From: Chondrosia reniformis
Taxonomy: Eukaryota > Porifera > Demospongiae > Chondrillida > Chondrillidae
Length of the DNA stretch: 64,000 bases
Assembly (NCBI GenBank): GCA_947172415.1
Contig: OX359195.1
Location: forward strand, 6,875,001 to 6,939,000
Direction of reading: 5' to 3'
Both the position numbers and the translations under genes were made by a program. The notes under the pieces were generated by a model. It searched no databases. It worked only from the letters and a program-made list of their open reading frames with translations, and was not told the origin of the DNA. Each line of letters starts with the position of its first letter. The stretch's first letter is position 1. Of the stretch, positions 17,873 to 60,640 are shown piece by piece.

Positions 17873-18856
17873 CTTCAGCTCTCAGGATCTTGCTGATTTC
17901 ATGCAGCCGCACAGACATGTGGTTATCAGAAAGGAAACGCTTGTGGTTAAAATGTCTGCGCTTACGTTTATCATATTAGCAACACCGTCTCGCACGTTCT
18001 AACCAATCCCCTAATAGCTACCTAACAAACATAAATCTTTAAATCTATCAATATGAATGTAAACTTCATTGGGACCCATCAATCAATGGTGCCATGCGCT
18101 CAGCTGCCATTTTAGTGCATAACGTTTTTGCGGGAAATGTCTTTCTTGAATTTGATTGGCTGAATATCAGTTAGGTTGTTCTTAGATTTTCTGTCACGTG
18201 AGGAAGAGGACATGCTTAACTTGAGCTAATTTCTCTCATTTCAGCAAAATTGAGATTTTCACTCAAGAATATTGTAAATCTTTGTCCTTTAGGCTAGTCT
18301 TGCAATATTCCTTTGGAAACGGTGAGACACAGAAATGTTGAGTAAAACCAATTAGTGTCAAGTGTGATGGTTACTTGAATGGAATTATCTTTTTTTCTAT
18401 CCATGCTCATTTTTGGTAATCACATTTCTCAAATTGTTAAACATTGTACATTATGACACTGGTCAGCCATTTTATCTTTACAATGATGTAACAATTACTG
18501 ACAGCTTGGGTGCTAGCACCCTATGTAGTATACATTGGAGGAACATGAGTGGTTGAGTAACCATTATGCAACAGATTAGGAAGTTGAGGCTCTATTGTGG
18601 GGGCCACCTGAACGAGTCATTGAGACACCAGTTTCACATCAATATATATGTATTTCTATCTTGTACACTCTTCCCACTGCTTCTATATAACCTTCTAACC
18701 TACAGCTACTATAATACTGCAATAGAACAGATGATTTTAAATAGGTTGTTTGATAACCAATATTTTCTGGAGTTAGTAGACATTCACACTTGACTCTACT
18801 AATATGATAGTGATAGCTTCTTCACTGAGAGATGTTGTTTTGTCTAGGTCTGCACA
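17873..18856. other. Divergent intergenic region between MBOAT B and KDM1B
   Basis: The genes are transcribed away from each other. No coding exon seen. A CTAG immediately before the KDM1B start context (TTTTGTCTAG at about 18838-18847) resembles a splice acceptor, so KDM1B may have an upstream noncoding exon in this stretch. Confidence 0.45.
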
Positions 18857-30162: not shown

Positions 30163-30334
30163 TGCATGGCTTTGAATTACGAGAAATATTTGTTTAAAAT
30201 ATTTGCAACTACAATTCATTCTGTTTGTGTGTTTGTTATTTGGTCCCTTTAAATCACTTCAGAGACTCAGCTCATCTTACACATCCCTTAGCCAATTACG
30301 TATTTGTGTGAAGCAATTGAACTTTCTGGGATCT

Positions 30335-32230
30335 AACACTGTAAAATGGAAAGATATGAAGCTAAAACTTGGTGTCAGCATTCACAGACATGTATAAAAC
30401 ATTTCCAATGAGAATTTGAAATTTTCATAAATCTTTACATTTGCCCTATCTCTCACCATACATTAATTTGGTATTCCAGTATATTAATGTACATTTGGTA
30501 CTCTAACTCTGTCAAATGGATAGATATGAAGCTCAAACTTGGTGTCAGCATTCACAGACATGTATGAAACATTTCCAATGAGAATTTGAAATTTTCATAA
30601 ATCTTTACATTTGCCCTACGTATCTCTCACCATACATTAATTTGGTATACCAGTATATTAATGTACATTTGGTGCTCTAACTCTGTCAAATGGAAAGATA
30701 TGAATTCGAAGTTCAAACTTGGTGTAGCCATTCACAGATATGTATAAAATATTTCCAATGAGAATTTGAAATTTTCATAAATCTTTACATTTGCCCTATC
30801 TCTCACCATACATTAATTTGGTATACCAGTATATTAATGTACATTTGGTACTCTAACTCTGTCAAATGGAAAGATATGAAGTTCAAACTTGGTGTAGGCA
30901 TTCACAGATATGTATAAAATATTTCCAATGAGAATTTGAAATTTTCATAAATCTTTACATTTGCCCTATCTCTCACCATACATTAATTTGGTATTCCAGT
31001 ATATTATTGTATATTTGGTGCTCTAACTCTGTCAAATGGATAGATATGAATTCGAAGCTCACACTTGGTGTCAGCATTCACAGACATGTATGAAACATTT
31101 CCAATGAGAATTTGAAATTTTCATAAATCTTTACATTTGCCCTATCTCTCACCATACATTAATTTGGTATTCCAGTATATTAATGTATATTTGGTGCTCT
31201 AACTCTGTCAAATGGATAGATATGAAGCTCAAACTTGGTGTCAGCATTCACAGACATGTATGAAACATTTCCAATGAGAATTTGAAATTTTCATAAATCT
31301 TTACATTTGCCCTATCTCTCACCATACATTAATTTGGTATACCAGTATATTAATGTACATTTGGTGCTCTAACTCTGTCAAATGGAAAGATATGAAGTTC
31401 AAACTTGGTGTAGGCATTCACAGATATGTATAAAATATTTCCAATGAGAATTTGAAATTTTCATAAATCTTTACATTTAATTTGCCCTACGCATCTCTCA
31501 CCATACATAAATTTGGTATTCCAGTATATTAATGTATATTTGGTGCTCTAACTCTGTCAAATGGATAGATATGAATTCGAAGCTCACACTTGGTGTCAGC
31601 ATTCACAGACATGTATGAAAAATTTCCAATGAGAATTTGAAATTTTCATAAATCTTTACATTTGCCCTATCTCTCACCATACATTAATTTGGTATTCCAG
31701 TATATTAATGTACATTTGGTACTCTAACTCTGTCAAATGGAAAGATATGAAGCTCAAACTTGGTGTCAGCATTCACAGACATGTATGAAACATTTCCAAT
31801 GAGAATTTGAATTTTTCATAAATCTTTACTTTTGCCCTATCTCTCACCATACATACATTATTTGGTATACCAGTATATATATTAATGTACATTTGGTACT
31901 CTAACTCTGTCAAATGGAAAGATGTGAAGCTACAACTTGGTGTCAGCATTCACAGACATGTATGAAACATTTCCAATGAGAATTTGAAATTTCCATAAAT
32001 CTTTACATTTGCCCTATCTCTCACCATACATTAACTTTGTATATATAGTAATAATTTAAAGTACATTATATTAAGGGCTGTAACTCTTCCAAATGGAGAG
32101 ATATGTATCTAAAACTCTATCTCAGTATTCACAGAGATGTATGTAAGGTTTCCAATGAGTTTTGCAAATTTTGAAATCAGGTCAAATTTGCCCTATCTCC
32201 CACCATACATTAACTAACCCTAATTGCGTA
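30335..32230 (+). repeat. Satellite array, F orientation, about 172-bp monomers
   Basis: About ten or eleven head-to-tail monomers, each with GTCAAATGGAAAGATATGAA, CATTCACAGACATGTATGAA and GCCCTATCTCTCACCATAC. The last full monomer before the core element (about 32040-32210) is a distinct subtype (CTCTATCTCAGTATTCACAG). Low divergence between units indicates recent amplification. Confidence 0.9.
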
Positions 32231-33240
32231 ATACTATAATGGCCGACCATGAGTAGGTGTAAGAGTGAAAATGCGGTACTGTATATATTTTTGAAAATTA
32301 GAACTCTTTGAAAGATTTCTTATACACATGGATATGCACTGTGAAGTACTTGATTGTTGTTGATGCAGTATCTATCCACATATATTATATGGATGTCGTT
32401 AAAATGAAATTTTGCCAATCGACGGCCAACGAAACTCCAAAGAAGAAAAGTTGGACCATACCGAACGCTACCATCCACGACGCTCAGAGGCCGGGATCGG
32501 TGGTAACGCTCTGCCGAGTTGAGCTTTGGGTGTCACTTGCGTGAGAAGAACCAGTTCTTCTCGATATGGCCGACTCATATGAATCCTAAGATATCAGATG
32601 CCAATCCCACATTACGTGGAACCCCCCCGAAATCCGGATTATTGGTGAGCACGTCTCTATGGCACCAACCGATTAGGAGACAGCTTCAGAGTCTAAGCGC
32701 TACCAACCCCTATGGGAACCGCTACCACCATAGAGATGTGTCCAGGTAGGCCTACTTTATAAGGTTTTTTGCCTCTATTTAAACCACAAAATTTCGAAAG
32801 AAAACGGTTGTGGTTGGCGCTATTCCATACTTAAGAATAGGGTATTTTCGAGAAAAATATGGTCCACTTATTTAAAGTTAATTACAGATCAGGGCATCGT
32901 TTCAAGCAATTTTGCACATATGTTCCGTATTTGTGGTCCATCTCGAAACAGGAGAAAATGGATAAAATCCTGTATGTGTCTTCATAAGCCGAGGAGAACG
33001 GCATTTCTGGTGCCGTGTAGAAACGATTTTAGCGAGAGGTGTTCCGATATCAACGTTTAATACTATAACCAGTCACATTCAACCTCAATTGCTGTAAAAC
33101 GATATCGCCTACTTACTTCTATATAGATTCATTCTGATAGGAGGGTTTGAACTGTCTCTGTGTATTTCTAGTTGGTCCCATGCATGTAAAACCTTTTGCC
33201 TTCAAGTGTTCCGATATTTTATATGAACGTATCGCACGAT
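32231..33240 (+). repeat. Core element A1 (about 1 kb) embedded in the satellite
   Basis: Begins ATACTATAATGGCCGACCAT and ends near GTATCGCACGAT. Its near-invariant segment spans about 32418-32770. Within it are a perfect 9-bp hairpin (GAGAAGAAC at 32543-32551, GTTCTTCTC at 32554-32562), distant arms TCTCTATGG (32654-32662) and CCATAGAGA (32728-32736), palindromes AATCCGGATT (32631) and GTAGGCCTAC (32746), and a T6 run at its right edge. TTATATGG lies about 35 bp upstream. Short ORFs cross it but show no recognisable domain. Confidence 0.8.
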
Positions 33241-34608
33241 ATACATTTACTGTACTATATATATAGTAATTTTAATTTTAGTACTGTAACTCTGTCAAAT
33301 AAAAGATATGAAGTTCAAACTTGGTGTAGGCATTCACAGATATGTATATATTCCAATGAGAATTTGAAATTTTCTTAAATCTTTTCCTTTGCCCTATCTC
33401 TCACCATACATTAATTTGGTATTCCAGTATATTAATGTACATTTGGTGCTCTAACTCTGTCAAATGGAAAGATATGAAGCTAAAACTTGGTGTCAGCATT
33501 CACAGACATGTATGAAACATTTCCAATGAGAATTTGAAATTTTCATAAATCTTTACATTTGCCCTATCTCTCACAATACATTAATTTGGTATTCCAGTAT
33601 ATTAATGTACATTTGGTACTCTAACTCTGTCAAATGGAAAGATATGAAGCTACAACTTGGTGTCAGCATTCACAGACATGTATAAAACATTTCCAATGAG
33701 AATTTGAAATTTTCATAAATCTTTACATTTGCCCTATCTCTCACCATACATTAATTTGGTATTCCAGTATATTAATGTACATTTGGTACTCTAACTCTGT
33801 CAAATGGAAAGATATGAAGCTACAACTTGGTGTCAGCATTCACAGACATGTATAAAACATTTCCAATGAGAATTTGAAATTTTCATAAATCTTTACATTT
33901 GCCCTATCTCTCACCATACATTAATTTGGTATTCCAGTATATTAATGTACATTTGGTACTCTAACTCTGTCAAATGGAAAGATATGAAGCTCAAACTTGG
34001 TGTCAGCATTCACAGACATGTATGAAACATTTCCAATGAGAATTTGAAATTTTCATAAATCTTTACATTTGCCCTACGTATCTCTCACCATACATTAATT
34101 TGGTATACCAGTATATTAATGTACATTTGGTGCTCTAACTCTGTCAAATGGAAAGATATGAAGTTCACACTTGGTGTAGGCATTCACAGATATGTATAAA
34201 ATATTTCCAATGAGAATTTGAAATTTTCATAAATCTTTACATTTGCCCTACGTATCTCTCACCATACATTAATTTGGTATACCAGTATATTAATGTACAT
34301 TTGGTGCTCTAACTCTGTCAAATGGAAAGATATGAAGTTCACACTTGGTGTAGGCATTCACAGATATGTATAAAATATTTCCAATGAGAATTTGAAATTT
34401 TCATAAATCTTTACATTTGCCCTATCTCTCACCATACATTAATTTGGTATTCCAGTATATTAATGTACATTTGGTGCTCTAACTCTGTCAAATGGAAAGA
34501 TATGAAGCTCAAACTTGGTGTCAGCATTCACAGACATGTATAAAACATTTCCAATGAGAATTTGAAATTTTCATAAATCTTTACATTTGCCCTATCTCTC
34601 ACCATACG
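33241..34608 (+). repeat. Satellite array, F orientation
   Basis: About eight monomers continuing the same family after a 16-bp palindrome (TACTATATATATAGTA, 33253-33268). Ends in a palindromic join where F meets R (34605-34620, GCCCTATC...TAGGGCAAA). Confidence 0.9.
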
Positions 34609-35786
34609 TAGGGCAAATATGAACAAAATTTGAAACTTCTGAAACTCTTTGGAAATGTTTCATACATGTCTGTGAATGCTGACATCAAGTATTAGCTTTA
34701 CATCTTACTGTTTGATGGAGTTACGTCCCTTAATGTACATTAAAATCTATCATATAAGTTTAATGTATGGTGAGAGATTGGGCAAATATGAACAAAAATT
34801 AAAACTTCTAAAACTCTTTGGAAATGTTTCATACATGTCTGTGAATGCTGAAATCAAGTAGTAGCCTCACATCTTGCTGTTTGTTGGAATTACGGCCCTT
34901 AATGTACTTTAAAATCTACCATATAAGTTTAATGTATGGTGAGAGATAGGGCAAATATGAACAAAAATTAAAACTTCTAAAACTCTTTGGAAATGTTTCA
35001 TACATGTCTGTGAATGCTGAAATCAAGTAGTAGCCTCACATCTTGCTGTTTGTTGGAATTACGGCCCTTAATGTACTTTAAAATCTACCATATAAGTTTA
35101 ATGTATGGTGAGAGATAGGGCAAATATGAACAAAAATTAAAACTTCTAAAACTCTTTGGAAATGTTTCATACATGTCTGTGAATGCTGAAATCAAGTAGT
35201 AGCCTCACATCTTGCTGTTTGTTGGAATTACGGCCCTTAATGTACTTTAAAATCTACCATATAAGTTTAATGTATGGTGAGAGATAGGGCAAATATGAAC
35301 AAAAATTAAAACTTCTGAAACTCTTTGGAAATGTTTCATACATGTCTGTGAATGCTGAAATCAAGTATTAGCTTCACATCTTGCTGTTTGTTGGAGTTAC
35401 GACCCTTAATGTACATTAAAATCTACCACACAAAGTTAATGTACGTATGGTGAGAGATAGGGCAAATATGAACAAAATTTGAAACTTCTGAAATTCTTTG
35501 GAAATGTTTCATACATGTCTGTGAATGCTGACATCAAGTATTAGCTTCACATCTTACTATTTGAAGGAGTTACGATCCTTAATGTACACTAATATCTGCC
35601 CTACAAAGTTAATGTATGGTGAGAGATAAGGCAAATATGAACAAATATTGAAACTTATAAAACTGTTTGGAAATGTTTCATACATGTCTGTGAATGCTGA
35701 CATCAAGTATTAGCTTCATATGTTGGTGTTTGAAAGAGTTACAGCAATAAATGTGTATTATATTTATATATACGATAATTGTACAA
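34609..35786 (-). repeat. Satellite array, R orientation
   Basis: About seven monomers of the same family inverted relative to the F block (GGTGAGAGATAGGGCAAATA, TTTCATACATGTCTGTGAAT). Several consecutive units are nearly identical. Confidence 0.9.
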
Positions 35787-36790
35787 TACTATAAATGGCC
35801 GACCGTGAGTAGGTACCAAATGCGATACTATAATATATGTATATCCGAATAACTAGAGCGCTTCCAAAGATTTCTTATACACATGGATATGCACTGTATA
35901 GTACTTGATTGTTGTTGAAGCAGTATTTATCCACATACATTATATGGATGTCGTTAAAGTGAAAATTTGTCGATCGACGGCCAACGAAACTCCAAAGAAG
36001 AAAAGTTGGACCATACCGAACGCTACCATCCACGACGCTCAGAGGCCGGGATCGGTGGTAACGCTCTGCCGAGTTGAGCTTTGGGTGTCACTTGCGTGAG
36101 AAGAACCAGTTCTTCTCGATATGGCCGACTCATATGAATCCTAAGATATCAGATGCCAATCCCACATTACGTGGAACCCCCCCGAAATCCGGATTATTGG
36201 TGAGCACGTCTCTATGGCACCAACCGATTAGGAGACAGCTTCAGAGTCTAAGCGCTACCAACCTCTATGGGAACCGCAACCACCATAGAGATGTGTCCAG
36301 GTAGGCCTACTTTATAAGGTTTTGCGCTTCTATTTAAACAACAAAATTTCAAAAGGAAACGATTGTGGTTGGCGCTATTCCATACTTAAGAATAGGGTAT
36401 TTGCGAGAAAAATGTAGTCAAATTATATCAAGTTAATTCGGGATCAGTGCATCGTTCCAAGCCATTTTAAAGGTATATCCAGTATTTGTGGTTCATCTAG
36501 AAACTGGGAAAAATGGATAGAATCCTGTAAGTGTCTTGATTGGCGGAGGAGAACTACTTTTCTGGTCCCATGTAGAAACGATTTTAGCGAGAGGTGTTCC
36601 GATATGAAGGTAAACTAGTATAACCAGCCACACTCAATCTCAATTGCTGTAATAGTATAATGGCTACCTGCCTCTATATAAAGGCCTTCAGATAGCTGCG
36701 TTCTGGACTGTCCCTGCGTGTTTCTGGTTGTCCCATTCATGTCAAATCATTTTAACTTGGTATGCCGATAATTTCCATAATAGTATCGCA
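35787..36790 (+). repeat. Core element B1
   Basis: Same organisation as A1, with the invariant segment at about 35973-36323 and only a T4 run at its end. Short inverted ends: TGCGATACTAT near 35822 and ATAGTATCGCA at 36780. Flanks outside the segment differ from A1 by many substitutions. Confidence 0.8.
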
Positions 36791-38620
36791 CGATATAAAT
36801 GCTACACCATTAAAGGTCGTATAGTAGAAATTTAATGTACATTAAGTGCTGTAACTCTTCCAAATGAAAAGATATGAATCTGAAACTCTATCTCAGTATT
36901 CACAAAGATGTATGTAAGGTTTTCATTGAGTTTTGCAAATTTTGATATCTATTCTAATTTGCCCTATCTCTCACCATACGTAATGTATGATGAGAGATAG
37001 GGCATGCAAACTTCTAAAATTCTTTGGAAATGTTTCATACATGTCTGTGAATGCTAACATCAAGTATTAGCTTCACATCTTGCTGTTTGTTGGAGTTACG
37101 ACCCTTAATGTACATTAAAATCTGCCCTACAATATTAATGTACGTATGGTGAAGAGATGGGCAAATATGAACAAAAATTAAAACTTTTAAAACTCATTGG
37201 AAATGTTTCATACATGTCTGTGAATGCTGAAATCAAGTATTAGCTTCACATCTTGCTGTTTCTTGGAATTACGGCCCTTAATGTACTTTAAAATCTACCA
37301 TACAAGTTTAATGTACGTATGGTGAGAGAGATAGGGCAAATATGAACAAAAATTAAAACTTCTGAAACTCTTTGGAAATGTTTCATATATGTCTGTGAAT
37401 ACGGACATCAAGTATTGGCTTCACATCTTGCTGTTTGTTGGAGTTATGGCCCTTAATATAATGTACTTTAAAATCAACCTTACAAGTTTAATGTATTGTG
37501 AGAGATAGGGCAAATATGAACAAAATTTGAAACTTCTGAAACTCTTTGGAAATGTTTCATACATGTCTGTGAATGCTGACATCAAGTATTAGCTTCACAT
37601 CTTACTGTTTGATGGAGTTACCACCCTTAATGTACATTAAAATCTCCAACACAAAGTTAATGTATTGTGAGAGATAGGGCAAATATGAACAAAATTTGAA
37701 ACTTCTAAAATTCTTTGGAAATGATTCATACATGTCTGTGAATGCTGACATCAAGTATATTGGCTTCACATCTTGCTGTTTGATGGAGTTACGACCCTTA
37801 ATGTACATTAAAATCTCCAACACAAAGTTAATGTATTGTGAGAGATAGGGCAAATATGAACAAAAATTGAAATTTCTAAAACTCTTTGGAAATGATTCAT
37901 ACATGTCTGTGAATGCTGACATCAAGTATTAGCTTCACATATTATATACTGTTTGATGGAGTGACGACCCTTAATGTACATCAAAATCTCCAACACAAAG
38001 TTAATGTATGGTGAGAGATAGGGCAAATATGAACAAAAATTGAAATTTCTAAAACTCTTTGGAAATGATTCATACATGTCTGTGAATGCTGACATCAAGT
38101 ATTGGCTTCACATCTTGCTGTTTGATGGAGTTACGACCCTTAATGTACTTTAAAATCTAACATACAAGTTTATTGTATTGTGAAGAGATAGGGCAAATAT
38201 GAAAAAAAATTGAAACTTTTAAAACTCTTTGGAAATGTTACATAAATGTCTGTTAATACTGACATCAAGTATTAGCTTCACATCTTACTGTTTGATGGAG
38301 TTACAACCCTTAATGTACATTGAAATCTCCAACAAAAAGTTAATGTATGGTGAGAGATAGGGCAAATATGAACAAAAATTAAAACTTCTAAAACTCTTTG
38401 GAAATGTTTCATACATGTCTGTGAATGCTGAAATCAAGTAGTAGCCTCACATCTTGCTGTTTGTTGGAATTACGGCCCTTAATGTACTTTAAAATCTACC
38501 ATATAAGTTTAATGTATGGTGAGAGATAGGGCAAATATGAACAAAAATTAAAACTTCTGAAACTCTTTGGAAATGTTTCATACATGTCTGTGAATGCTGA
38601 AATCAAGTATTAGCTTCACA
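36791..38620. repeat. Satellite array: one F monomer, then R monomers
   Basis: One diverged F monomer up to about 36980, a palindromic junction, then about ten R monomers. The final ACA (38618-38620) is the target-site duplication of the CACTA element. Confidence 0.88.
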
Positions 38621-40565: not shown

Positions 40566-40766
40566 GCTGTAAAATTTTGTATGCATGGAGTAATTAGTAA
40601 TACCAGTACCAGTACACATGCATTCATGACACATGGACACCAATGTATGCAGATAGGGTTGTTGTAGGACTAGTACTATAGGCTATACAACTCCAAACAT
40701 GTAAGCTTGCCAGTCCAATGGTTTATTTTCAATTAAGCTATATATTATAAGTTTGTTTTTAGGTGA

Positions 40767-42085
40767 TTAGATTGGTATAGCCCGAAGCAGGCTCCCCATG
40801 TTCTAAGCTTGATTATTAGATTGGTACAGCCCGAAGCAGGCTCCCCATGTTCTAAGTTTGATTATTAGATTGGTACAGCCCGAAGCAGGCTCCCCATGTT
40901 CTAAGCTTGATTATTAGATTGGTACAGCCCGAAGCAGGCTCCCCATGTTCTAAGTTTGATTATTAGATTGGTACAGCCCGAAACAGGCTCCCCATGTTCT
41001 AAGCTTGATTATTAGATTGGTACAGCCCGAAGCAGGCTCCCCATGTTCTAAGTTTGATTATTAGATTGGTACAGCCCGAAGCAGGCTCCCCATGTTCTAA
41101 GTTTGATTATTAGATTGGTACAGCCCGAAGCAGGCTCCCCATGTTCTAAGCTTGATTATTAGATTGGTACAGCCCGAAGCAGGCTCCCCATGTTCTAAGA
41201 TTGATTATTAGATTGGTACAGCCCGAAGCAGGCTCCCCATGTTCTAAGCTTGATTATTAGATTGGTACAGCCCGAAGCAGGCTCCCCATGTTCTAAGTTT
41301 GATTATTAGATTGGTACAGCCCGAAACAGGCTCCCCATGTTCTAAGCTTGATTATTAGATTGGTACAGCCCGAAGCAGGCTCCCCATGTTCTAAGTTTGA
41401 TTATTAGATTGGTACAGCCCGAAGCAGGCTCCCCATGTTCTAAGTTTGATTATTAGATTGGTACAGCCCGAAGCAGGCTCCCCATGTTCTAAGTTTGATT
41501 ATTAGATTGGTACAGCCCGAAGCAGGCTCCCCATGTTCTAAGTTTGATTATTAGATTGGTACAGCCCGAAGCAGGCTCCCCATGTTCTAAGTTTGATTAT
41601 TAGATTGGTACAGCCCGAAGCAGGCTCCCCATGTTCTAAGATTGATTATTAGATTGGTACAGCCCGAAGCAGGCTCCCCATGTTCTAAGATTGATTATTA
41701 GATTGGTACAGCCCGAAGCAGGCTCCCCATGTTCTAAGATTGATTATTAGATTGGTACAGCCTGAAGCAGGCTCCCCATGTTCTAAGTTTGATTATTAGA
41801 TTGGTACAGCCCGAAGCAGGCTCCCCATGTTCTAAGATTGATTATTAGATTGGTACAGCCCGAAGCAGGCTCCCCATGTTCTAAGATTGATTATTAGATT
41901 GGTACAGCCCGAAGCAGGCTCCCCATGTTCTAAGATTGATTATTAGATTGGTACAGCCCGAAGCAGGCTCCCCATGTTCTAAGCTTGATCATTAGATTGG
42001 TACAGCCTGAAGCCAGGCTCCCCATGGCCATGTTCTAAGATTGATTATTAGATTGGTACAGCCCGAAGCAGGCTCTCCACATTCT
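40767..42085. repeat. 49-bp minisatellite inside the CACTA element, about 27 copies
   Basis: Unit ATTAGATTGGTACAGCCCGA plus AGCAGGCTCCCCATGTTCTA and a short tail; nearly perfect copies. Each unit contains AGCC-N7-GGCT, able to form a small hairpin. Not coding. Confidence 0.95.
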
Positions 42086-42988: not shown

Positions 42989-45900
42989 TCACAGAGGGAT
43001 TTGACTAACAATAAGTACTCTGTCAGAACCACGTCTAGTTCCAAAATGAACATCTGCTTCTAGCCAAATGACACGTGAGCAAATGTTCTGAATAGGAATA
43101 AAAACGGAATGGATTTCCAAAGAAGTGGTCCAAATCTCACAAGGTGTACCTAGCCAATATCTGAATTCATCTGGAATAAAAAAATTTACATTGGCAAACC
43201 AAACAGAGTGTACATTTGTCAATCCACTTGCAACTGTAACCTGAGTGGAAACCTTAATGAAATAATTTATCCTACAAAGGCTGGTAGCCTGTGTTGCAGT
43301 ATCTTTATGTGCTAGCACACGACTGCAGGCATGAAACCTGCCTTCAAAGGAACCAATAGTAGAGCCATTTATCCTAACACAGTTACATTTTGAACATAGT
43401 ATACCGATGTCAATTTGGCCTTCAAAAAGTCCACAGGAAATGACAATTAAAGCTTCTTTGGTAACTCTATCTAAAGATGACTCAAAAATAGGTGGTAAAG
43501 GAATCACTGATCTACTTCCTATCTTATCACTGGAAATAGGTTTAAAGCAGACAGAAAGAGAGCCTTTCAAATTGGTGTAACCCAACAGAGGACCAAAGTC
43601 ATCTTGGTATTCTTGGGGCAAACTTGAGGTAACAGTAAAATCAAGCATGCAAAATTTTCTCATAAGTTGGATCTCCACACTTCTGTTATTGGTTGGATAT
43701 CCACCTAATAAACCATTCATCCTCTCAAAAGCAAATAACCAAAAACTATACACTGGGCCAAAGTCCCTTATACACTCCTGTAGATGAAGGTGTAAATGCA
43801 TATTGGGAGTCAAATACTTAGGGGAGTACAAAGCCTCAGTTTGTATACAAAAATCAGTTAACAATTTATGGGCCTCAGCAATTTCATGTGGTTTAATTAT
43901 TCTAGAGCAAAGTATACTGCATGCCTTTACAAACGTTTGCCAACATTTGTAATCATTAATTGGTAGAATAGGCCTTAAGCAAGGCAGGGAAAACAATAAG
44001 ACCCAATTTTTCCACTGATCGGCACTGAAGGAAGAAAACCCAGAGGACAGCTTAAATGGTATTCTTCCAACATCAGATGGACCAATAAAATTATCTACCT
44101 TTTCCTGGATGGATTGGAAATCATTAGGCTTAAGTTTTCCAGTCTCTTTCCAAATTGTCATCATATGCTTTGCAGTTCCTAATAGTAAATTGTGCATGGG
44201 GTCGATGATAACCATTCTGGTAGGGTCAAAGTAAGGCAATTCTAAAAGCACTGAATACTTGATCCCATACTCTTGCTGTATCTTCCTTTGCGCCTGTTGA
44301 GAAGTAGCTAAATGCCATTTGTCTGCAAAAGAATGAACAAGTGACAGCTCCCTTTTTGGCCAGTTTTCAGTGTCAAACCCACCATAATTGGGCTTGTTAA
44401 TGTCCGCTGCATATGTAAAAGCTTTTAAACATTTGAGGCATCCTCTATGGGCATTAAAATTCACAAAACCTGACACTTTCCTAGCCGCAGGGGTATCACA
44501 TGCAACACACAACAGAACTGCTCTAGCAAGTATTTTCCCACAGTCAGTACTTATTTCTACTCCATTGTTCCAAAATGCCTTCAATTCAGCAACTAATGGT
44601 TCTAATATGAAGTTTAGGTTAGCAGGTTCTTTTGGACCGGGTATAAGACCAAGCAACAAAATGTTTTCTGGCTTAAATCTCTCGACCCTTGGTAAATTTT
44701 GTATAGCCAAATAAATTGCACCCAAAGAATATGGGGTATGATCAAAGGGCTGAAAAAAATCTAAATTTAACATAAATGCAAAAGTGTGCACACTACTTAA
44801 TAAAGGCAAAGACTTATATTCCTGAAATTCCTTCCATATACTTCCATGGTAAACATCAGTGAGGTCAGGAGTTGGACCAACATTACGCCAATGTTGACAC
44901 TTTTCCAGCATGCCTTTACGCATCAATATAGCTTCCAAACCTGTTTTAATACTTTTATAACAATAAATCATCTTTGGAAAATAAAGAGTTTTACCTGCAG
45001 AAGTTCTATAGGATTTAAATAGAGGTTGATTGCAAGGCCTACGTTTGGATGGGTGTGGATGGTGTGGAAACTTGGCATAGCTACAGTATGCCTGCCTCTT
45101 TGAAGAATTTAGTCTTTCACCTAGAAGGTCTTCAGACTTATAAATAGAATTACACTTTTGGCAATAAATGTACTTTTGAAAGGTGTCTTTTATATTAGTG
45201 GCTTTCTTAACCTGATAAACAGTTCTTGGCAATTTGCCTACAAATTCAGACATAGGTCCATTAGGAAACCGTTTCAGCATAGCCTCGAAAAATTTCACAA
45301 TAAACAATAGAAAGATGGATAGAGTAGCATTTGATAATTTAGCTACAGACTGGATAGCTAACAGGAAGTGGGAATATAGAATAACCAACTTGTTGTGCCC
45401 ATTGTCAGGACACGGAGATGTTTGCTCTTCATAACAATCATTGATAATGTCTTCCATCTCTTCCGGGTCAACTAGAAGATCAAGGGATTCACCTTCTTCT
45501 TCATTACCACTCATGTCACTATCAGAGTCAACAGCCTATGTTAAATATCAGAAAATGCCATTTCTCTAACTCATATAATTGACCTGCAGTCATGCACTTC
45601 AGTGCACTCACTTCTAAATGCTCATTTCCTCCAACTAAATTCTCCAAAGAAGTATCGATTGGTATTCCTTGTTCTTGGACTTCCCTTGGTATGGAGTCCT
45701 GCCAACACATATAAAGGCACTATTGGACAACTAAATCCATGATGCATTCAATGCATACAGTACAGCAGTGCCTTCTACATACTGAAAGTATATGCATGTA
45801 TACCATTGCTTGATCTTCATTGTGGGCTTCTTCAGATGCATGCTCTCCAACTGAATCTGATTGACATTCCTCAACTTAATTAAGAGAAGGCATAAAGGGG

Positions 45901-48846: not shown

Positions 48847-51800
48847 ACATCTTGCTGTTTGTTGGAGTTACGACCCTTAATGTACATTAAAATCTACCAC
48901 ACAAAGTTAATGTACGTATGGTGAGAGATAGGGCAAATATGAACAAAAATTGAAACTTCTAAAATTCTTTGGAAATGTTTCATACATGTCTGTGAATGCT
49001 AACATCAAGTATTAGCTTCACATCTTGCTGTTTGTTGGAGTTACCACCCTTAATGTACTTTAAAATCTACCATACAAGTTTAATGTATGGTTAGAGATAG
49101 GGCAAATATGAACAAAAATTGAAACTTCTGAAACTCTTTGGAAATGTTTCATACATGTCTGTGAATGCTGAAATCAAGTATTAGCTTCACATCTTGCTGT
49201 TTGTTGGAGTTACGACCCTTAATGTACATTAAAATCTACCACACAAAGTTAATGTACGTATGGTGAGAGATAGGGCAAATATGAACAAAAATTGAAACTT
49301 CTAAAATTCTTTGGAAATGTTTCATACATGTCTGTGAATGCTAACATCAAGTATTAGCTTCACATCTTGCTGTTTGTTGGAGTTACCACCCTTAATGTAC
49401 TTTAAAATCTACCATACAAGTTTAATGTATGGTTAGAGATAGGGCAAATATGAACAAAAATTGAAACTTTTGAAACTCTTTGGAAATGTTTCATATATGT
49501 CTGTGAATGCTGAAATCAAGTATTAGCTTCACATCTTGCTGTTTGTTGGAGTTACGACCCTTAATGTACATTAAAATCTACCACACAAAGTTAATGTACC
49601 TATGGTGAGAGATAGGGCAAATATGAACAAAAATTGAAACTTCTAAAATTCTTTGGAAATGTTTCATACATGTCTGTAAATGCTAACATCAAGTATTAGC
49701 TTCACATCTTGCTGTTTGTTGGAGTTACCACCCTTAATGTACTTTAAAATCTACCATACAAGTTTAATGTATGGTTAGAGATAGGGCAAATATGAACAAA
49801 AATTGAAACTTCTGAAACTCTTTGGAAATGTTTCATATATGTCTGTGAATGCTGAAATCAAGTATTAGCTTCACATCTTGCTGTTTGTTGGAGTTACGAC
49901 CCTTAATGTACATTAAAATCTACCACACAAAGTTAATGTACCTATGGTGAGAGATAGGGCAAATATGAACAAAAATTGAAACTTCTAAAATTCTTTGGAA
50001 ATGTTTCATACATGTCTGTGAATGCTAACATCAAGTATTAGCTTCACATCTTGCTGTTTGTTGGAGTTACCACCCTTAATGTACTTTAAAATCTACCATA
50101 CAAGTTTAATGTATGGTTAGAGATAGGGCAAATATGAACAAAAATTGAAACTTCTAAAACTCTTTGGAAATGTTTCATATATGTCTGTGAATGCTGACAT
50201 CAAGTATTAGCTTTACATCTTACTGTTTGATGGAGTTACGTCCCTTAATGTACATTAAAATCTAACATACAAAGTTAATGTATTGTGAGAGATAGGGCAA
50301 ATATGAACAAAATTTGAAACTTCTAAAATTCTTTGGAAATGATTCATACATGTCTGTGAATGCTGACATCAAGTTTTAGCTTCACATATTACTGTTTGAT
50401 GGAGTTACGACCCTTAATGTACATTAAAATCTCCAACACAAAGTTAATGTATTGTGAGAGATAGGGCAAATATGAACAAAAATTGAAACTTCTAAAACTC
50501 TTTGCAAATGTTTCATACATGTCTGTGAATGCTGACATCAAGTATATTGGCTTCACATCTTGCTGTTTGATGGAGTTACGACCCTTAATGTACATTAAAA
50601 TCTCCAACACAAAGTTAATGTATTGTGAGAGATAGGGCAAATATGAACAAAAATTGAAACTTCTAAAACTCTTTGCAAATGTTTCATACATGTCTGTGAA
50701 TGCTGACATCAAGTATATTGGCTTCACATCTTGCTGTTTGATGGAGTTACGACCCTTAATGTACATTAAAATCTCCAACACAAAGTTAATGTATTGTGAG
50801 AGATAGGGCAAATATGAACAAAAATTGAAATTTCTAAAACTCTTTGGAAATGATTCATACATGTCTGTGAATGCTGACATCAAGTATTAGCTTCACATAT
50901 TACTGTTTGATGGAGTGACGACCCTTAATGTACATTAAAATCTCCAACACAAAGTTAATGTATGGTGAGAGATAGGGCAAATATGAACAAAAATTGAAAT
51001 TTCTAAAACTCTTTGGAAATGATTCATACATGTCTGTGAATGCTGACATCAAGTATTGGCTTCACATCTTGCTGTTTGATGGAGTTACGACCCTTAATGT
51101 ACTTTAAAATCTAACATACAAGTTTAATGTATTGTGAAGAGATAGGGCAAATATGAAAAAAAATTGAAACTTTTAAAACTCTCTAGAAATGTTACATAAA
51201 TGTCTGTCAATACTGACATCAAGTATTAGCTTCACATCTTGCTGTTTGATGGAGTTACGACCCTTAATGTACATTAAAATCTCCAACACAAAGTTAATGT
51301 ATTGTGAGAGATAGGGCAAATATGAACAAAATTGAAATTTCTAAAACTCTTTGGAAATGATTCATACATGTCTGTGAATGCTGACATCAAGTATTAGCTT
51401 CACATATTACTGTTTGATGGAGTGACGACCCTTAATGTACATCAAAATCTCCAACACAAAGTTAATGTATGGTGAGAGATAGGGCAAATATAAACAAAAA
51501 TTGAAATTTCTAAAACTCTTTGGAAATGATTCATACATGTCTGTGAATGCTGACATCAAGTATTGGCTTCACATCTTGCTGTTTGATGGAGTTACGACCC
51601 TTAATGTACTTTAAAATCTAACATACAAGTTTAATGTATTGTGAAGAGATAGGGCAAATATGAAAAAAAATTGAAACTTTTAAAACTCTCTAGAAATGTT
51701 ACATAAATGTCTGTCAATACTGACATCAAGTATTAGCTTCACATCTTACTGTTTGATGGAGTTACAACCCTTAATGTACATTGAAATCTCCAACAAAAAG

Positions 51801-52828
51801 TTAATGTATGGTGAGAGATAGGGCAAATATGAACAAAAATTAAAACTTCTAAAACTCTTTGGAAATGTTTCATACATGTCTGTGAATGCTGAAATCAAGT
51901 AGTAGCCTCACATCTTGCTGTTTGTTGGAATTACGGCCCTTAATGTACTTTAAAATCTACCATATAAGTTTAATGTATGGTGAGAGATAGGGCAAATATG
52001 AACAAAAATTAAAACTTCTGAAACTCTTTGGAAATGTTTCATACATGTCTGTGAATGCTGAAATCAAGTATTAGCTTCACATCTTGCTGTTTGTTGGAGT
52101 TACGACCCTTAATGTACATTAAAATCTACCACACAAAGTTAATGTACCTATGGTGAGAGATAGGGCAAATATGAACAAAAATTGAAACTTCTAAAATTCT
52201 TTGGAAATGTTTCATACATGTCTGTGAATGCTAACATCAAGTATTAGCTTCACATCTTGCTGTTTGTTGGAGTTACGACCCTTAATGTACATTAAAATCT
52301 GCAATACAAAGTTAATGTATGGTGAAGAGATGGGCAAATATGAACAAAATTTGAAACTTCTGAAACTCTTTGGAAATGTTTCATACATGTCTGTGAATGC
52401 TGAAATCAAGTATTAGCTTCACATCTTGCTGTTTGTTGGAGTTACCACCCTTAATGTACTTTAAAATCTACCATACAAGTTTAATGTATGGTTAGAGATA
52501 GGGCAAATATGAACAAAAATTGAAACTTCTGAAACTCTTTGGAAATGTTTCATATATGTCTGTGAATACTGACATCAAGTATTGGCTTCACATCTTGCTG
52601 TTTGATGGAGTGACGACCCTTAATGTACATTAAAATCTCCAACACAAAGTTAATGTATGGTGAGAGATAGGGCAAATATGAACAAAAATTGAAACTTCTA
52701 AAACCCTTTGCAAATGTTTCATACATGTCTGTGAATGCTGACATCAAGTATTAGCTTCATATGTTGGTGTTTGAAAGAGTTACAGCAATAAATGTGTATT
52801 ATATTTATATATACGATAATTGTACAAG
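48847..52828 (-). repeat. Satellite array, R orientation, with dimeric and trimeric higher-order units
   Basis: About 23 monomers. From 48850 to 50150 two monomer types alternate (TTACCACCC against TTACGACCC), giving a repeat of about 342 bp. From about 50870 to 51780 a unit with ACATAAATGTCTGTCAATAC recurs at about 500 bp spacing. The last units match those left of the CACTA element. Confidence 0.9.
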
Positions 52829-54630
52829 AGAGAGTGAACACATCATTATTTTGAAATTTACAGAAAATCAAGTGATGTGTTATAGAAAAAAGTATCAGCA
52901 AGATCACAGTGTCTCAAATATAATGAAATATCAATACAAATGAGTCCTGGCATGCTACCATAGAAATATACACTATATATAATTAAGTTAGAAGGGGTTA
53001 ATCCATGGGGTGGATTTTCTAGCAAAAAATATGGTTTGCGAGGTGGAAATAGATATCTTGCTAGCATCTTGAAGAATTCTTCTAGTAACTGATCTTTGAG
53101 GATTGCAGGTGTCTTTAATAAATCGATCCAGTGCATTTTGAGTGTTAATACTCCAGTGTCCTAATGAGCCGATTTCTAGTGTATCGAACATTACAGTATA
53201 TCCTTTCATCTTTAGATCTGCCACAAGTTGGATGTAATTTGGTTTTGAATGTTTGAATGATCGGGCTGAGGCAAAGTTCTTATCAGTGTTTGTACAGATA
53301 GTCAATTCTAGAATTTGGAATTTCTTTTCTTTATTAGACATAGCTACCAAGTCTGGTCTTGCAGAGGTGGAGAGGATGGAGGGAGGAATAGTGGCATGGG
53401 GTGTGTCTGATGCTCTTACCCCCTCAATATCAGCAAAGAGATTATATTCTTTTTGGATTAGTGGCTGGAGTGACTTCCAAAGGTGTTTCAAGACCTGATC
53501 ATGTCTCCATGAATAACGTCCGTCGTTTAGGGCAACAGAACAATGGTTAAGTATATGTTTTGCGTTAGCATTAACTGAACCACATAGGTGGCAAGAGGGG
53601 TCAATTCTTAGCTTCCATCGTTTCAATGTGATGGGTGTTGGTAAACATTCTAGGGAGGCTCGAAGTACAAAAGATAACTGCCCCCTTGGAAGGCAGGTTA
53701 TCAGACGTTTCCAGAGGCCTGTTTCACTCTCTAGTGTGGTTATTTCTTTTAGTTGGCCTTGGACTGATAGACTTTCCAGTTTAGAGTCCCAGTGTTCTTT
53801 TCGTCTTTGATAGAATCTCAGCTTTATTTCTCTTTGTCTTTTGGTTCTACTTCTGGCTGGGTTGAAAGAATTGGTGGCTAGGTGGGAGCAGGTTCTGGCT
53901 GTTTCAGCTGCTAAGGGTGGAATTTGCTCCCGATTCAAGAATTCTGGTGACTGTAAAAGAGATATAGTTTCTTGAACCAATGGATCTGTTGATGAGAGGA
54001 CAATAGAGAGATGGGAGGTCTTAGCCTTCTCAGCCATATGAGGAAGATAGGGAACATCTAAGATCTCCGGATGATATAACACAGCAAGTGTAGAACACCT
54101 TGGAAGGCCTAACCATGACTTCAGAGATCTATTGACAATGGATTGAAGCCTGGTGATGGTAGTCTTTCTGATTGCATTAACAGCTAGATGGAAGTGCAAT
54201 GAAGGGGCTAGATAGTGCGAGTAGATCCACGTCTTATATTCACCCCTAACATTACTTGAGTCAATATTATTAAGAGCAGATTGAACTTTGGTCGTTAAGC
54301 TAGTACCTGCAGCTGAATAGGCAGCTGATGGACAGTGTGCTAGGAATTTCCCAAGGAACTTTGAGGGATTCCTGCTAATATTAGTTGTTTCGCCTGTACC
54401 TAGTCTGAATGTAACAGATTTATCAACTGAGGAACCATTAAAGGCGAAGGAGATACACTTTTCAGGTTTTAGATGGAGATCAAGCTCCTTACATTTCGTG
54501 TCCAGTGTGGACAGGATGGATTGATGCTCTGCCTTATCTGTGGATAAGACAGAGAGGTCATCGGCAAATGCTTTAATTCGATGTGGTGAGGAGTAGAGAG
54601 GCAGCATAGGTACTATAGGTGGTTCCTAAA
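52829..54630 (-). mobile_element. 5'-truncated non-LTR retrotransposon with restriction-like endonuclease
   Basis: Interrupts the junction seen intact at 35780 and 56850 (GTACAATACTATAAATGGCC), leaving GTACAA at the left and ATACTATAAATGG at the right. The 3' end (left, minus strand) has no poly(A), as usual for RLE-type elements. Target duplication absent or at most 2-3 bp. Confidence 0.8.
52988..54607 (-). pseudogene. RT C-terminal half, zinc knuckle and RLE domain fragment
   Basis: 539 codons, open at the 5' side. It opens inside the reverse transcriptase palm with AFADDLSVLS (the Y/F-ADD catalytic box), continues through the thumb, a zinc knuckle CHLCGSVNANAKHILNHC, and a restriction-like endonuclease with ARPDLVA and ILELTI (PD-(D/E)xK type), then LEIGSLGHWS. 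This order is that of R2/NeSL/HERO-like non-LTR elements. The N-terminal DNA-binding and finger regions are missing, so it cannot mobilise itself. Confidence 0.85.
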
Positions 54631-54631
54631 A

Positions 54632-55633
54632 ATACTATAAATGGCCGACCGTGAGTAGGTACCAAATGCGATACTATAATATATATCCGAATAACTAGAG
54701 CGCTTCCAAAGATTTCTTATACACATGGATATGCACTGTATAGTACTTGATTGTTGTTGAAGCAGTATTTATCCACATACATTATATGGATGTCGTTAAA
54801 GTGAAATTTTGCCGATCGACGGCCAACGAAACTCCAAAGAAGAAAAGTTGGACCATACCGAACGCTACCATCCACGACGCTCAGAGGCCGGGATCGGTGG
54901 TAACGCTCTGCCGAGTTGAGCTTTGGGTGTCACTTGCGTGAGAAGAACCAGTTCTTCTCGATATGGCCGACTCATATGAATCCTAAGATATCAGATGCCA
55001 ATCCCACATTACGTGGAACCCCCCCCGAAATCCGGATTATTGGTGAGCACGTCTCTATGGCACCAACCGATTAGGAGACAGCTTCAGAGTCTAAGCGCTA
55101 CCAACCTCTATGGGAACCGCAACCACCATAGAGATGTGTCCAGGTAGGCCTACTTTATAAGGTTTTGCGCTTCTATTTAAACAACAAAATTTCAAAAGGA
55201 AACGATTGTGGTTGGCGCTATTCCATACTTAAGAATAGGGTATTTGCAAGAAAAATGTAGTCAAATTATATCAAGTTAATTCGGGATCAGTGCATCGTTC
55301 CAAGCCATTTTAAAGGTATATCCAGTATTTGTGGTTCATCTAGAAACTGGGAAAAATGGATAGAATCCTGTAAGTGTCTTGATTGGCGGAGGAGAACTAC
55401 TTTTCTGGTCCCATGTAGAAACGATTTTAGCGAGAGGTGTTCCGATATGAAGGTAAACTAGTATAACCAGCCACACTCAATCTCAATTGCTGTAATAGTA
55501 TAATGGCTACCTGCCTCTATATAAAGACCGTCTGATAGCTGCGTTCTGGACTGTCCCTGCGTGTTTCTAGTAGTCCCATTCATGTCAAATCATTTTAGCT
55601 TGGTATGCCGATAATTTCCATAATAGTATCGCA
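54632..55633 (+). repeat. Core element B2
   Basis: Third copy, invariant segment at about 54815-55166, differing from B1 by one extra C in the poly-C run and a few substitutions. Its left satellite context has been displaced by the retrotransposon. Confidence 0.8.
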
Positions 55634-56856
55634 CGATATAAATGCTACACCATTAAAGGTGTATATTAGAAATTTAATGTACATTAAGTGCTGTAACTCT
55701 TCCAAATGAAAAGATATGAATCTGAAACTCTATCTCAGTATTCACAAAGATGTATGTAAGGTTTTCATTGAGTTTTGCAAATTTTGATATCTATTCTAAT
55801 TTGCCCTATCTCTCACCATACGTAATGTATGGTGAGAGATAGGGCAAATATGAACAAAACTTGAAACTTCTAAAACTGAATGGTAATGTTTCATACATGT
55901 CTGTGAATGCTGACATCAAGTATTAGCTTCACATCTTACTGTTTGTTGGAGTTACGACCCTTAATGTACTTTAAAATCTAACATACAAGTTTAATGTATG
56001 GTGAGAGATATATAGGGCAAATATGAACAAACATTAAAATTTCTTAAACTCTTTGGAAATGTTTTATACATGTCTATGAATGCTGACATCAAGTATTAGC
56101 TTCACATCTTGCTGTTTGTTGGAGTTACGGCCCTTAAGGTACTCTAAAATGTAACATACAAGTTTAATGTATTGTGAGAGATAGGGCAAATATGAACAAA
56201 AATTAAAACTTTTAAAACTCTTTGGAAATGTTTCATACATGCCTGTGAATGCTGACATCAAGTATTAGCTTCACATCTTGCGGTTTGATGGAGTTACGAC
56301 CCTTAATGTACTTTAAAATCTACCATACAAAAGTTAATGTGTGGTGAGAGATATACGTATAGGGCAAATATGAACAAACATTAAAACTTCTTAAACTCTT
56401 TGGAAATGTTTCATACATGTCTATGAATGCTGACATCAAGTATTAGCTTCACATCTTGCTGTTTGTTGGAGTTACGACCCTTAATGTACTTTAAAATCTA
56501 ACATACAAGTTTAATGTATGGTGAGAGATAGGGCAAATATGAACAAAAATTAAACTTCTAAAACACTTTGAAAATGTTTCATACATGTCTGTGAATGCTG
56601 ACATCAAGTATTAGCTTCACATCTTACTATTTGAAGGAGTTACGATCCTTAATGTACACTAATATCTGCCCTACAAAGTTAATGTATGGTGAGAGATAAG
56701 GCAAATATGAACAAATATTGAAACTTATAAAACTGTTTGGAAATGTTTCATATATGTCTGTGAATGCTGACATCAAGTATTAGTTTCATATGTTGGTGTT
56801 TGAAAGAGTTACAGCAATAAATGTGTATTATATTTATATATACGATAATTGTACAA
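55634..56856. repeat. Satellite array: one F monomer, then R monomers
   Basis: The same diverged F monomer as after B1, a palindromic junction near 55820-55835 (CACCATACGTAATGTATGGT), then about six R monomers. Confidence 0.88.
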
Positions 56857-57860
56857 TACTATAAATGGCCGACCGTGAGTAGGTACCAAATGCGATACTA
56901 TAATATATGTATATCCGAATAACTAGAGCGCTTCCAAAGATTTCTTATACACATGGATATGCACTGTATAGTACTTGATTGTTGTTGAAGCAGTATTTAT
57001 CCACATACATTATATGGATGTCGTTAAAGTGAAAATTTGCCGATCGACGGCCAACGAAACTCCAAAGAAGAAAAGTTGGACCATACCGAACGCTACCATC
57101 CACGACGCTCAGAGGCCGGGATCGGTGGTAACGCTCTGCCGAGTTGAGCTTTGGGTGTCACTTGCGTGAGAAGAACCAGTTCTTCTCGATATGGCCGACT
57201 CATATGAATCCTAAGATATCAGATGCCAATCCCACATTACGTGGAACCCCCCCGAAATCCGGATTATTGGTGAGCACGTCTCTATGGCACCAACCGATTA
57301 GGAGACAGCTTCAGAGTCTAAGCGCTACCAACCTCTATGGGAACCGCAACCACCATAGAGATGTGTCCAGGTAGGCCTACTTTATAAGGTTTTGCGCTTC
57401 TATTTAAACAACAAAATTTCAAAAGGAAACGATTGTGGTTGGCGCTATTCCATACTTAAGAATAGGGTATTTGCGAGAAAAATGTAGTCAAATTATATCA
57501 AGTTAATTCGGGATCAGTGCATCGTTCCAAGCCATTTTAAAGGTATATCCAGTATTTGTGGTTCATCTAGAAACTGGGAAAAATGGATAGAATCCTGTAA
57601 GTGTCTTGATTGGCGGAGGAGAACTACTTTTCTGGTCCCATGTAGAAACGATTTTAGCGAGAGGTGTTCCGATATGAAGGTAAACTAGTATAACCAGCCA
57701 CACTCAATCTCAATTGCTGTAATAGTATAATGGCTACCTGCCTCTATATAAAGGCCTTCAGATAGCTGCGTTCTGGACTGTCCCTGCGTGTTTCTGGTTG
57801 TCCCATTCATGTCAAATCATTTTAACTTGGTATGCCGATAATTTCCATAATAGTATCGCA
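56857..57860 (+). repeat. Core element B3
   Basis: Matches B1 without gaps at a constant offset of 21,070 bp; invariant segment at about 57043-57393. Part of a duplicated block of about 2 kb (see findings). Confidence 0.8.
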
Positions 57861-58750
57861 CGATATAAATGCTACACCATTAAAGGTCGTATAGTAGAAA
57901 TTTAATGTACATTAAGTGCTGTAACTCTTCCAAATGAAAAGATATGAATCTGAAACTCTATCTCAGTATTCACAAAGATGTATGTAAGGTTTTCATTGAG
58001 TTTTGCAAATTTTGATATCTATTCTAATTTGCCCTATCTCTCACCATACGTAATGTATGATGAGAGATAGGGCATGCAAACTTCTAAAATTCTTTGGAAA
58101 TGTTTCATACATGTCTGTGAATGCTAACATCAAGTATTAGCTTCACATCTTACTGTTTGTTGGAGTTACGACCCTTAATGTACATTAAAATCTGCCCTAC
58201 AATATTAATGTACGTATGGTGAAGAGATGGGCAAATATGAACAAAAATTAAAACTTTTAAAACTCATTGGAAATGTTTCATACATGTCTGTGAATGCTGA
58301 AATCAAGTATTAGCTTCACATCTTGCTGTTTCTTGGAATTACGGCCCTTAATGTACTTTAAAATCTACCATACAAGTTTAATGTACGTATGGTGAGAGAG
58401 ATAGGGCAAATATGAACAAAATTTGAAACTTCTGAAACTCTTTGGAAATGTTTCATATATGTCTGTGAATACTGACATCAAGTATTGGCTTCACATCTTG
58501 CTGTTTGTTGGAGTTATGGCCCTTAATATAATGTACTTTAAAATCTACCATACAAGTTTAATGTATTGTGAGAAATAGGGCAAATATGAACAAAATTTGA
58601 AACTTCTGAAACTCTTTGGAAATGTTTCATACATGTCTGTGAATGCTGAAATCAAGTATTAGCTTCACATCTTGCTGTTTGTTGGAGTTACGACCCTTAA
58701 TGTACATTAAAATCTGCAATACAAAGTTAATGTATGGTGAAGAGATGGGC
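57861..58750. repeat. Satellite array: one F monomer, then R monomers
   Basis: Mirrors the right side of B1 up to about 58590, then diverges, and ends at a tail-to-tail R/F switch near 58750. Confidence 0.88.
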
Positions 58751-59628
58751 AAATATTTGGTATACCAGTATATTAATGTACATTTGGTACTCTAACTCTG
58801 TCAAATGGAAAGATGTGAAGCTACAACTTGGTGTCATTATTCACAGACATGTATGAAACATTTCCAATGAGAATTTGAAATTTTCATAAATCTTTACATT
58901 TGCCCTATCTCTCACCATACATTAATTTGGTATTCCAGTATATTAATGTACATTTGGTACTCTAACTCGGTCAAATGGAAAGATATGAAGCTACAACTTG
59001 GTGTCAGCATTCACAGACATGTATAAAACATTTCTAATGAGAATTTGAAATTTTCATAAATCTTTACATTTGCCCTATCTACGTACCATGCATTAATTTG
59101 GTATTCCAGTATATTAATGTACATTTGGTACTCTAACTCTGTCAAATGGATAGATATGAAGCTCAAACTTGGTGTCAGCATTCACAGACATGTATGAAAC
59201 ATTTCCAATGAGAATTTGAAATTTTCATAAATCTTTACATTTGCCCTATCTCTCACCATACATTAATTTGGTATACCAGTATATTAATGTACATTTGGTG
59301 CTCTAACTCTGTCAAATGGAAAGATGTGAAGCTACAACTTGGTGTCATTATTCACAGACATGTATGAAACATTTCCAATGAGAATTTGAAATTTTCAAAA
59401 ATCTTTACATTTGCCCTATCTCTCACCATACATTAACTTTGTATAGTAGTAATTTAAAGTACATTATATTAAGGGCTGTAACTCTTCCAAATGGAGAGAT
59501 ATGTATCTAAAACTCTATCTCAGTATTCACAGAGATGTATGTAAGGTTTCCAATGAGTTTTGCAAATTTTGAAATCAGGTCAAATTTGCCCTATCTCCCA
59601 CCATACATTAACTAACCCTAATTGCGTA
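58751..59628 (+). repeat. Satellite array, F orientation
   Basis: About five F monomers leading into core A2, ending with the same diverged monomer subtype that precedes A1. Confidence 0.88.
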
Positions 59629-60640
59629 ATACTATAATGGCCGACCATGAGTAGGTGTAAGAGTGAAAATGCGGTACTGTATATATTTTTGAAAATTAGA
59701 ACTCTTTGAAAGATTTCTTATACACATGGATATGCACTGTGAAGTACTTGATTGTTGTTGATGCAGTATCTATCCACATATATTATATGGATGTCGTTAA
59801 AATGAAATTTTGCCAATCGACGGCCAACGAAACTCCAAAGAAGAAAAGTTGGACCATACCGAACGCTACCATCCACGACGCTCAGAGGCCGGGATCGGTG
59901 GTAACGCTCTGCCGAGTTGAGCTTTGGGTGTCACTTGCGTGAGAAGAACCAGTTCTTCTCGATATGGCCGACTCATATGAATCCTAAGATATCAGATGCC
60001 AATCCCACATTACGTGGAACCCCCCCGAAATCCGGATTATTGGTGAGCACGTCTCTATGGCACCAACCGATTAGGAGACAGCTTCAGAGTCTAAGCGCTA
60101 CCAACCCCTATGGGAACCGCTACCACCATAGAGATGTGTCCAGGTAGGCCTACTTTATAAGGTTTTTTGCCTCTATTTAAACCACAAAATTTCGAAAGAA
60201 AACGGTTGTGGTTGGCGCTATTCCATACTTAAGAATAGGGTATTTTCGAGAAAAATATGGTCCACTTATTTAAAGTTAATTACAGATCAGGGCATCGTTT
60301 CAAGCAATTTTGCACATATATTCCGTATTTGTGGTCCATCTCGAAACAGGAGAAAATGGATAAAATCCTGTATGTGTCTTCATAAGCCGAGGAGAACGGC
60401 ATTTCTGGTGCCGTGTAGAAACGATTTTAGCGAGAGGTGTTCCGATATCAACGTTTAATACTATAACCAGTCACATTCAATCTCAATTGCTGTAAAACGA
60501 TATCGCCTACTTACTTCTATATAGATTCATTCTGATAGGAGGGTTTGAACTGTCTCTGTGTATTTCTAGTTGGTCCCATGCATGTAAAACCTTTTGCCTT
60601 CAAGTGTTCCGATATTTTATATGAACGTATCGCACGATAT
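59629..60640 (+). repeat. Core element A2
   Basis: Matches A1 without gaps at offset 27,398; invariant segment at about 59816-60168 with the same T6 run. Its right flank is interrupted by a retrotransposon fragment. Confidence 0.8.

Follow-up and report, generated by a model that had tools for sequence, protein, structure and literature searches.

What is the segment of about 350 bp that recurs, nearly unchanged, within satellite-embedded core sequences of the sponge Chondrosia reniformis? In the stretch of 64,000 nucleotides analyzed here (the window), a BLASTN search with positions 32418-32770 returns exactly five strong matches, 99.1-100% identical to the first: the copies starting at 32418 and 59816 are 100% identical, those starting at 35973 and 57043 reach 99.4% (2 mismatches over 351), and the one starting at 54815 reaches 99.1% (2 mismatches and 1 gap). 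Entire cores of the A and B subfamilies, by comparison, are ~84% identical. A first-pass annotation had described five near-identical copies in which the two subfamilies differ at a couple of positions, and both statements hold. As we set out below, the segment is likely to represent a new, highly amplified family of RNA genes driven by a proximal sequence element (PSE), read from the minus strand and separated by satellite spacers. The putative gene is apparently undescribed and exists in hundreds of near-identical copies.

Across the genome (117,379,552 bases in 15 contigs were searched), an internal 34-mer of the segment has 873 matches (439 + 434) with up to 3 mismatches, and its reversed control has 0. 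The assembly, odChoReni1.1, comprises 14 chromosomes and a mitochondrial genome, with a chromosome 1 of 10.41 Mb (PMC12181767, in excerpt). Copies are spread over many chromosomes and, among the 100 matches listed, all from C1 and C2, form clusters, often in the same orientation and often at spacings of 1.4-6 kb; a 169/170-bp satellite adjoins them in the nine loci examined. The window and the loci together contain 80 matches, 6 of them partial and 74 complete; the latter occupy 72 places, two being counted twice through the overlapping loci L006 and L007. Since the loci were picked through the 34-mer or the segment itself, mostly on C1 and C2, this sample favors intact copies. It includes a long form (L053-L068, L020, L022), extended by an insertion of ~29 nt near the 3' third, and, near the end of C1, an old, diverged copy (L022:9499-9842, plus strand), which corresponds to 74% of the segment and has a PSE score of 23.1 and a broken T-run. 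In viral contigs, a 27-mer of the segment has 0 exact matches, and we did not find the repeat described among the best-ranked titles of a literature search or in the available excerpts of PMC12181767, PMC9841428 and PMC4287351.

The case for an RNA gene begins with its promoter. The U1, U2, U5 and RNase P genes of this genome have a PSE in common, AACCACAAnnnTTT, and a matrix was derived from these genes only (18 sites, 13 distinct), in which the PSE starts at -57 in 15 sites, at -56 in 2 and at -66 in 1 (RNase P). Four held-out snRNA matches on the other strand (L031, L036, L042, L050) have PSEs scoring 21.1-22.8 at -57 or -56. With the same matrix, all five window copies have a minus-strand PSE scoring 24.0-25.3, within the training range of 17.2-28.6. 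It lies 44-61 bp past the right edge of the predicted RNA and is followed on the minus strand by the TATA-like TTTAAATA, whose AAATAGA part is invariant in 49 aligned copies. The distance from the PSE to the motif at the RNA start is identical in all 49. The PSE and the predicted start are ~55-57 apart, just as in the U1, U2 and U5 genes.

A scan of 541,258 strand-bases from the window and the loci, in which a few places are double-counted via overlapping loci, gives 65 sites scoring 17 or higher; 58 lead into the segment, and 2 of the other 7 belong to diverged or cut copies of it. A PSE of at least 17.9 is found in 73 of the 74 complete rows, the remaining one having lost it, and among the 72 rows with standard spacing the PSE core is variable in 1 of 11 columns, as opposed to 17 of 36 among the other promoter columns. 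Genome-wide, the segment's form of the PSE has 780 matches, of which 699 precede the exact RNA start in the proper order, and the reversed controls gave 0 in both searches. As for a distal element, we found no motif clearly in common with the upstream regions of snRNA genes, and this includes the block of intermediate conservation in front of the PSE (Table 1).

At the opposite end lies a T-run. The first run of four or more Ts on the minus strand coincides with the 3' end in all 74 rows; it is T7 in 63, T6 in 5 and T4 in 6, and the rows with T4 are those of the five copies in the window plus the decayed L022. Taken alone, the absence of an internal T4 has a probability of 0.68 by chance. Within the first 320 nt, neither an A box, a B box nor the Sm site AT(4-6)G occurs in any of the 74 rows. 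Judged by sequence, this layout of signals is that of a type 3 Pol III gene. In copy A1, spacing from the PSE and TATA-like box puts the predicted start anywhere in 32749-32758; the coordinates for all five copies are collected in Table 1.

Table 1. Predicted genes, their signals and their satellite surroundings in the window
Feature	Position	Strand	Basis or remark
Predicted RNA, copy A1, ~311 nt	32446..32756	-	Body identity 0.994, start motif and T-run
Predicted RNA, copy B1	36001..36311	-	BLASTN and located signals
Predicted RNA, copy B3	54843..55154	-	BLASTN and located signals
Predicted RNA, copy B2	57071..57381	-	BLASTN and located signals
Predicted RNA, copy A2	59844..60154	-	BLASTN and located signals
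Putative Pol III-type T-run terminator, copy A1 (T4 here)	32443..32449	-	
TATA-like box TTTAAATA, copy A1 (ATATAAATA in other subfamilies)	32776..32783	-	
PSE, copy A1, CCAACCACAACCGTTTTC	32800..32817	-	PWM 25.3
PSE, copy B1	36355..36372	-	PWM 24.0; TATA-like box 36331-36338
PSE, copy B3	55198..55215	-	PWM; TATA-like box 55174-55181
PSE, copy B2	57425..57442	-	PWM; TATA-like box 57401-57408
PSE, copy A2	60198..60215	-	PWM; TATA-like box 60174-60181
3' flank, still 0.92 identical, contains TTATATGG	32320..32442		49-copy alignment
Moderately conserved block upstream of PSE, identity 0.847	32867..33008		49-copy alignment
~170-bp satellite array holding core A1 (spacer of the unit)	30332..34607		
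169-bp satellite array adjoining core B1	34609..35732		
169-bp satellite array adjoining core B1	37008..38620		
169-bp satellite array	48847..52783		
169-bp satellite array between B3 and B2	55823..56812		
Satellite arrays between B2 and A2	58078..59611		

Which polymerase would read such a gene? The spacing between PSE and start would equally suit a Pol II-transcribed U-type snRNA with the same PSE, and because several Pol II snRNA promoters of this genome (U1, U2, U5) also have TTTATAA near -30, the TATA-like box gives no verdict on the polymerase. The missing Sm site, however, argues against such an snRNA, as does the long terminal T-run with no earlier T4: this is the pattern of U6 and RNase P, which end in T8 and T5 in this genome, while the U1, U2 and U5 genes examined contain T4 or longer runs well before their ends. 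We consider a Pol II snRNA quite improbable. The best U6 match (L029, upstream of 1501) has a TATA box and a PSE score of only -6.1, and no PSE was found at a weak second U6 match; as U6 thus lacks the element, RNase P is the one gene here that links the PSE to Pol III.

The strand deserves separate consideration. The first-pass annotation had proposed a Pol III-type transcript whose TATA box was an upstream TTATATGG and whose terminator was the T6/T4 run on the right. The proposed kind of transcript is supported by PSE, TATA-like box and T-run, but strand and signals have to be revised, the minus strand being the most likely one. TTATATGG does exist, yet it falls into the 3' flank of the predicted gene, on the wrong side relative to the PSE to be its TATA box; likewise, the right-hand T-run is real, but has the TATA-like box on one side and the predicted start on the other. 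A plus-strand transcript delimited by these two elements could claim, beyond their presence, that the plus strand folds with z-scores of -2.0 and -2.05, a better result than the -0.77 obtained for copy A1 on the minus strand. It is nevertheless extremely unlikely: the best plus-strand PSE score in 49 copies is 7.7, the right-hand T-run varies (position 32769 is T in 34 copies and G in 15), and in the alignment folds the minus strand keeps more of the variable pair cells, which are not independent of each other (30 against 22 that are broken), than does the plus strand (15 against 27). The PSE-like AACCACAA just right of the segment (32782-32789, plus strand) was rejected as well; it varies between copies, scores at most 7.7 and pairs with TTGTGGTT of the real PSE.

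Structure itself says less. Both the perfect hairpin GAGAAGAAC/GTTCTTCTC and the pair of arms CACGTCTCTATGG/CCATAGAGATGTG, which are 65 nt apart, are present as first annotated. On the minus strand, the long-form copy L059 folds with a z-score of -2.15 and the old copy L022 with +1.10. Alignment folds of 21 rows, among which there is little variation, give 107 pairs on the minus and 92 on the plus strand, with a single pair showing a compensatory change in each. Folding and covariation are too weak to prove a structure, so we assign the strand from the promoter and the terminator.

To follow conservation along the locus, we aligned 49 complete copies with 350 bp of left and 550 bp of right flank inside their locus. 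This set excludes partial copies, copies truncated where a locus ends, and loci that duplicate the window or one another, and the long form is absent from it. Mean pairwise identity is 0.742 in the far left flank, 0.92 in the 3' flank (32320-32442), 0.957 in the T-run zone and 0.994 in the RNA body (32450-32756). Further right it is 0.91 between start and TATA-like box, 0.931 in the TATA zone, 0.691 in the gap between TATA-like box and PSE, 0.947 in the PSE, 0.434 in the 49 bp beyond (32818-32866) and 0.649 in the far right flank (33009-33240). The contrast between segment and flanks is far above chance. Divergence across the 1-kb core is thus not uniform among the aligned copies (0.994 in the body versus 0.434-0.92 in the flanks). 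Unlike first described, conservation does not end abruptly on the left, but tapers off to ~32320.

Divergence of the gene is uncoupled from that of its flanks, because the identity of the RNA body stays at 0.991-0.995 whatever the flanks do. The 598 pairs whose right flanks are below 0.6 in identity have bodies at 0.991, the 53 pairs with right flanks between 0.8 and 0.9 have bodies at 0.995, and in the 525 pairs with right flanks above 0.9 the value is 0.992. Bodies that are ~99% identical despite flanks below 60% indicate a homogenization centered on the gene. In 20 of the 49 copies, moreover, the left flank is nearest to the A reference and the right flank to the B reference, so exchange across the gene must be common. 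The gene conversion that had been offered as an alternative to an RNA gene therefore applies too, as local homogenization alongside it. That unpaired positions are near-invariant points to homogenization as much as to structural constraint, and ~700 redundant copies could not easily be held by selection. The conserved 3' flank past the T-run and the short T4 of the window copies also speak against the RNA-gene reading.

Such observations also suit a repeat that yields no working product and owes its uniformity to gene conversion or to a recent amplification, with PSE, TATA-like box and T-run as relics of an ancestral gene. Copies do recombine across the segment, as the mixed flanks show, and the uniformity extends to positions that need no pairing; some copies are also decayed or cut, among them the 6 partial rows and L022 with its broken T-run. 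Relics, on the other hand, should not stay fixed while the bases between and beyond them drift, as PSE and TATA-like box do, and PSEs with the spacer variants GCG and CTG still score 27.2 and 25.8. We regard a relic repeat as unlikely. Repeated insertion of the 350-bp body into the core, as a SINE-like or homing mobile element, is very improbable: it would account for the high copy number on many chromosomes and for a uniform body in diverged flanks, but internal Pol III boxes are absent and both flanks can still be aligned between copies, which most likely reflects one ancestral insertion context.

If the minus strand encodes an RNA, it belongs to no family we could recognize. Searches of both strands with the Rfam covariance models, at gathering and relaxed thresholds, gave no match (best sub-threshold E at least 1.8), in agreement with the initial comparison to known RNAs. 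Telomerase RNA was rejected, as none of the 74 rows contains TTAGGG, CCCTAA, CTAACCC or TAACCC, the telomere repeat being assumed, and spliced-leader RNA was dropped on length. Protein coding was likewise rejected by eye: the longest stop-free stretch spans ~80 codons on the plus strand, and 6 of the 49 copies have 2 bp inserted at 32587, which shifts it. With a length near 330 nt, 7SK has the same type of promoter as the predicted gene, and a 7SK-like regulator is a possible role for the predicted RNA. No row of the 74 has two GATC, as in the GATC repeats of 7SK, in its first 320 nt. A genome search with the 7SK model (RF00100) found no match, nor did it find its own controls, and hence does not indicate absence.

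The predicted gene resembles two kinds of known systems. Like the type 3 Pol III genes (U6, RNase P, MRP, 7SK), it has an external PSE and a TATA-like box, ends in a T-run and lacks internal boxes, and in this genome RNase P, which ends in T5, has the same PSE. The segment differs in matching no Rfam family and in its hundreds of copies in satellite arrays, compared with a single match each for RNase P and MRP and two for U6 in our searches. The other parallel is with 5S rDNA, tandem U2 and spliced-leader arrays, which combine a uniform gene with a diverging spacer in clustered repeat units, as does the segment. Unlike in these arrays, the spacer consists of core sequence plus the 169/170-bp satellite, and the units form many small clusters on many chromosomes; unlike 5S or U2, the predicted RNA of ~311 nt has no Rfam match to either. 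For RNase P, a gene bearing typical Pol III signals has been reported from a sponge (PMC4287351, in excerpt).

In the reading that we favor, the PSE would be recognized by SNAPc-type factors and the TATA-like box by TBP. Transcription by RNA polymerase III would then begin near 32756, extend over ~311 nt (~340 nt in the long subfamily) and terminate at the T-run. The product would end in a U-tract and work in an RNP, in which we infer a structural or regulatory role. The repeat unit would consist of the gene and a spacer of core sequence and satellite, as in 5S rDNA-like arrays; duplication of such units in clusters would raise the copy number, and gene-centered conversion or exchange, together with selection, would keep gene and promoter signals uniform. 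We think it rather unlikely that the RNA gene is instead a selfish one, in which an snRNA-type promoter drives an RNA whose copies overwrite resident gene bodies, possibly via cDNA or RNA-guided repair, such that the transcribed part and the promoter signals are homogenized among ~700-870 loci while satellite spacers drift.

If transcribed, the PSE-driven genes proposed here would form a very large family, accounting for 699 of the 780 genomic matches to their PSE form, and would supply an early-branching animal with an RNA of no Rfam family. They would also allow us to test how hundreds of dispersed gene copies stay identical while their spacers diverge, and whether satellites can carry RNA genes.

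The window has several other features. Two further strong PSE matches (16088-16105, plus strand, 23.1; 17933-17950, minus strand, 24.3) lie outside the family with no obvious TATA box, and may be due to chance or belong to other small-RNA genes. Minus-strand open frames at 52988-54607 and 60821-61651 abut copies B3 and A2; by eye, they look like the C-terminal part of a non-LTR reverse transcriptase and are likely 5'-truncated insertions into the satellite. Finally, an 841-codon open frame at 42989-45514 (minus strand) appears transposase-like by eye, and a 49-bp tandem repeat of ~27 copies with 96% matches occupies 40766-42079.
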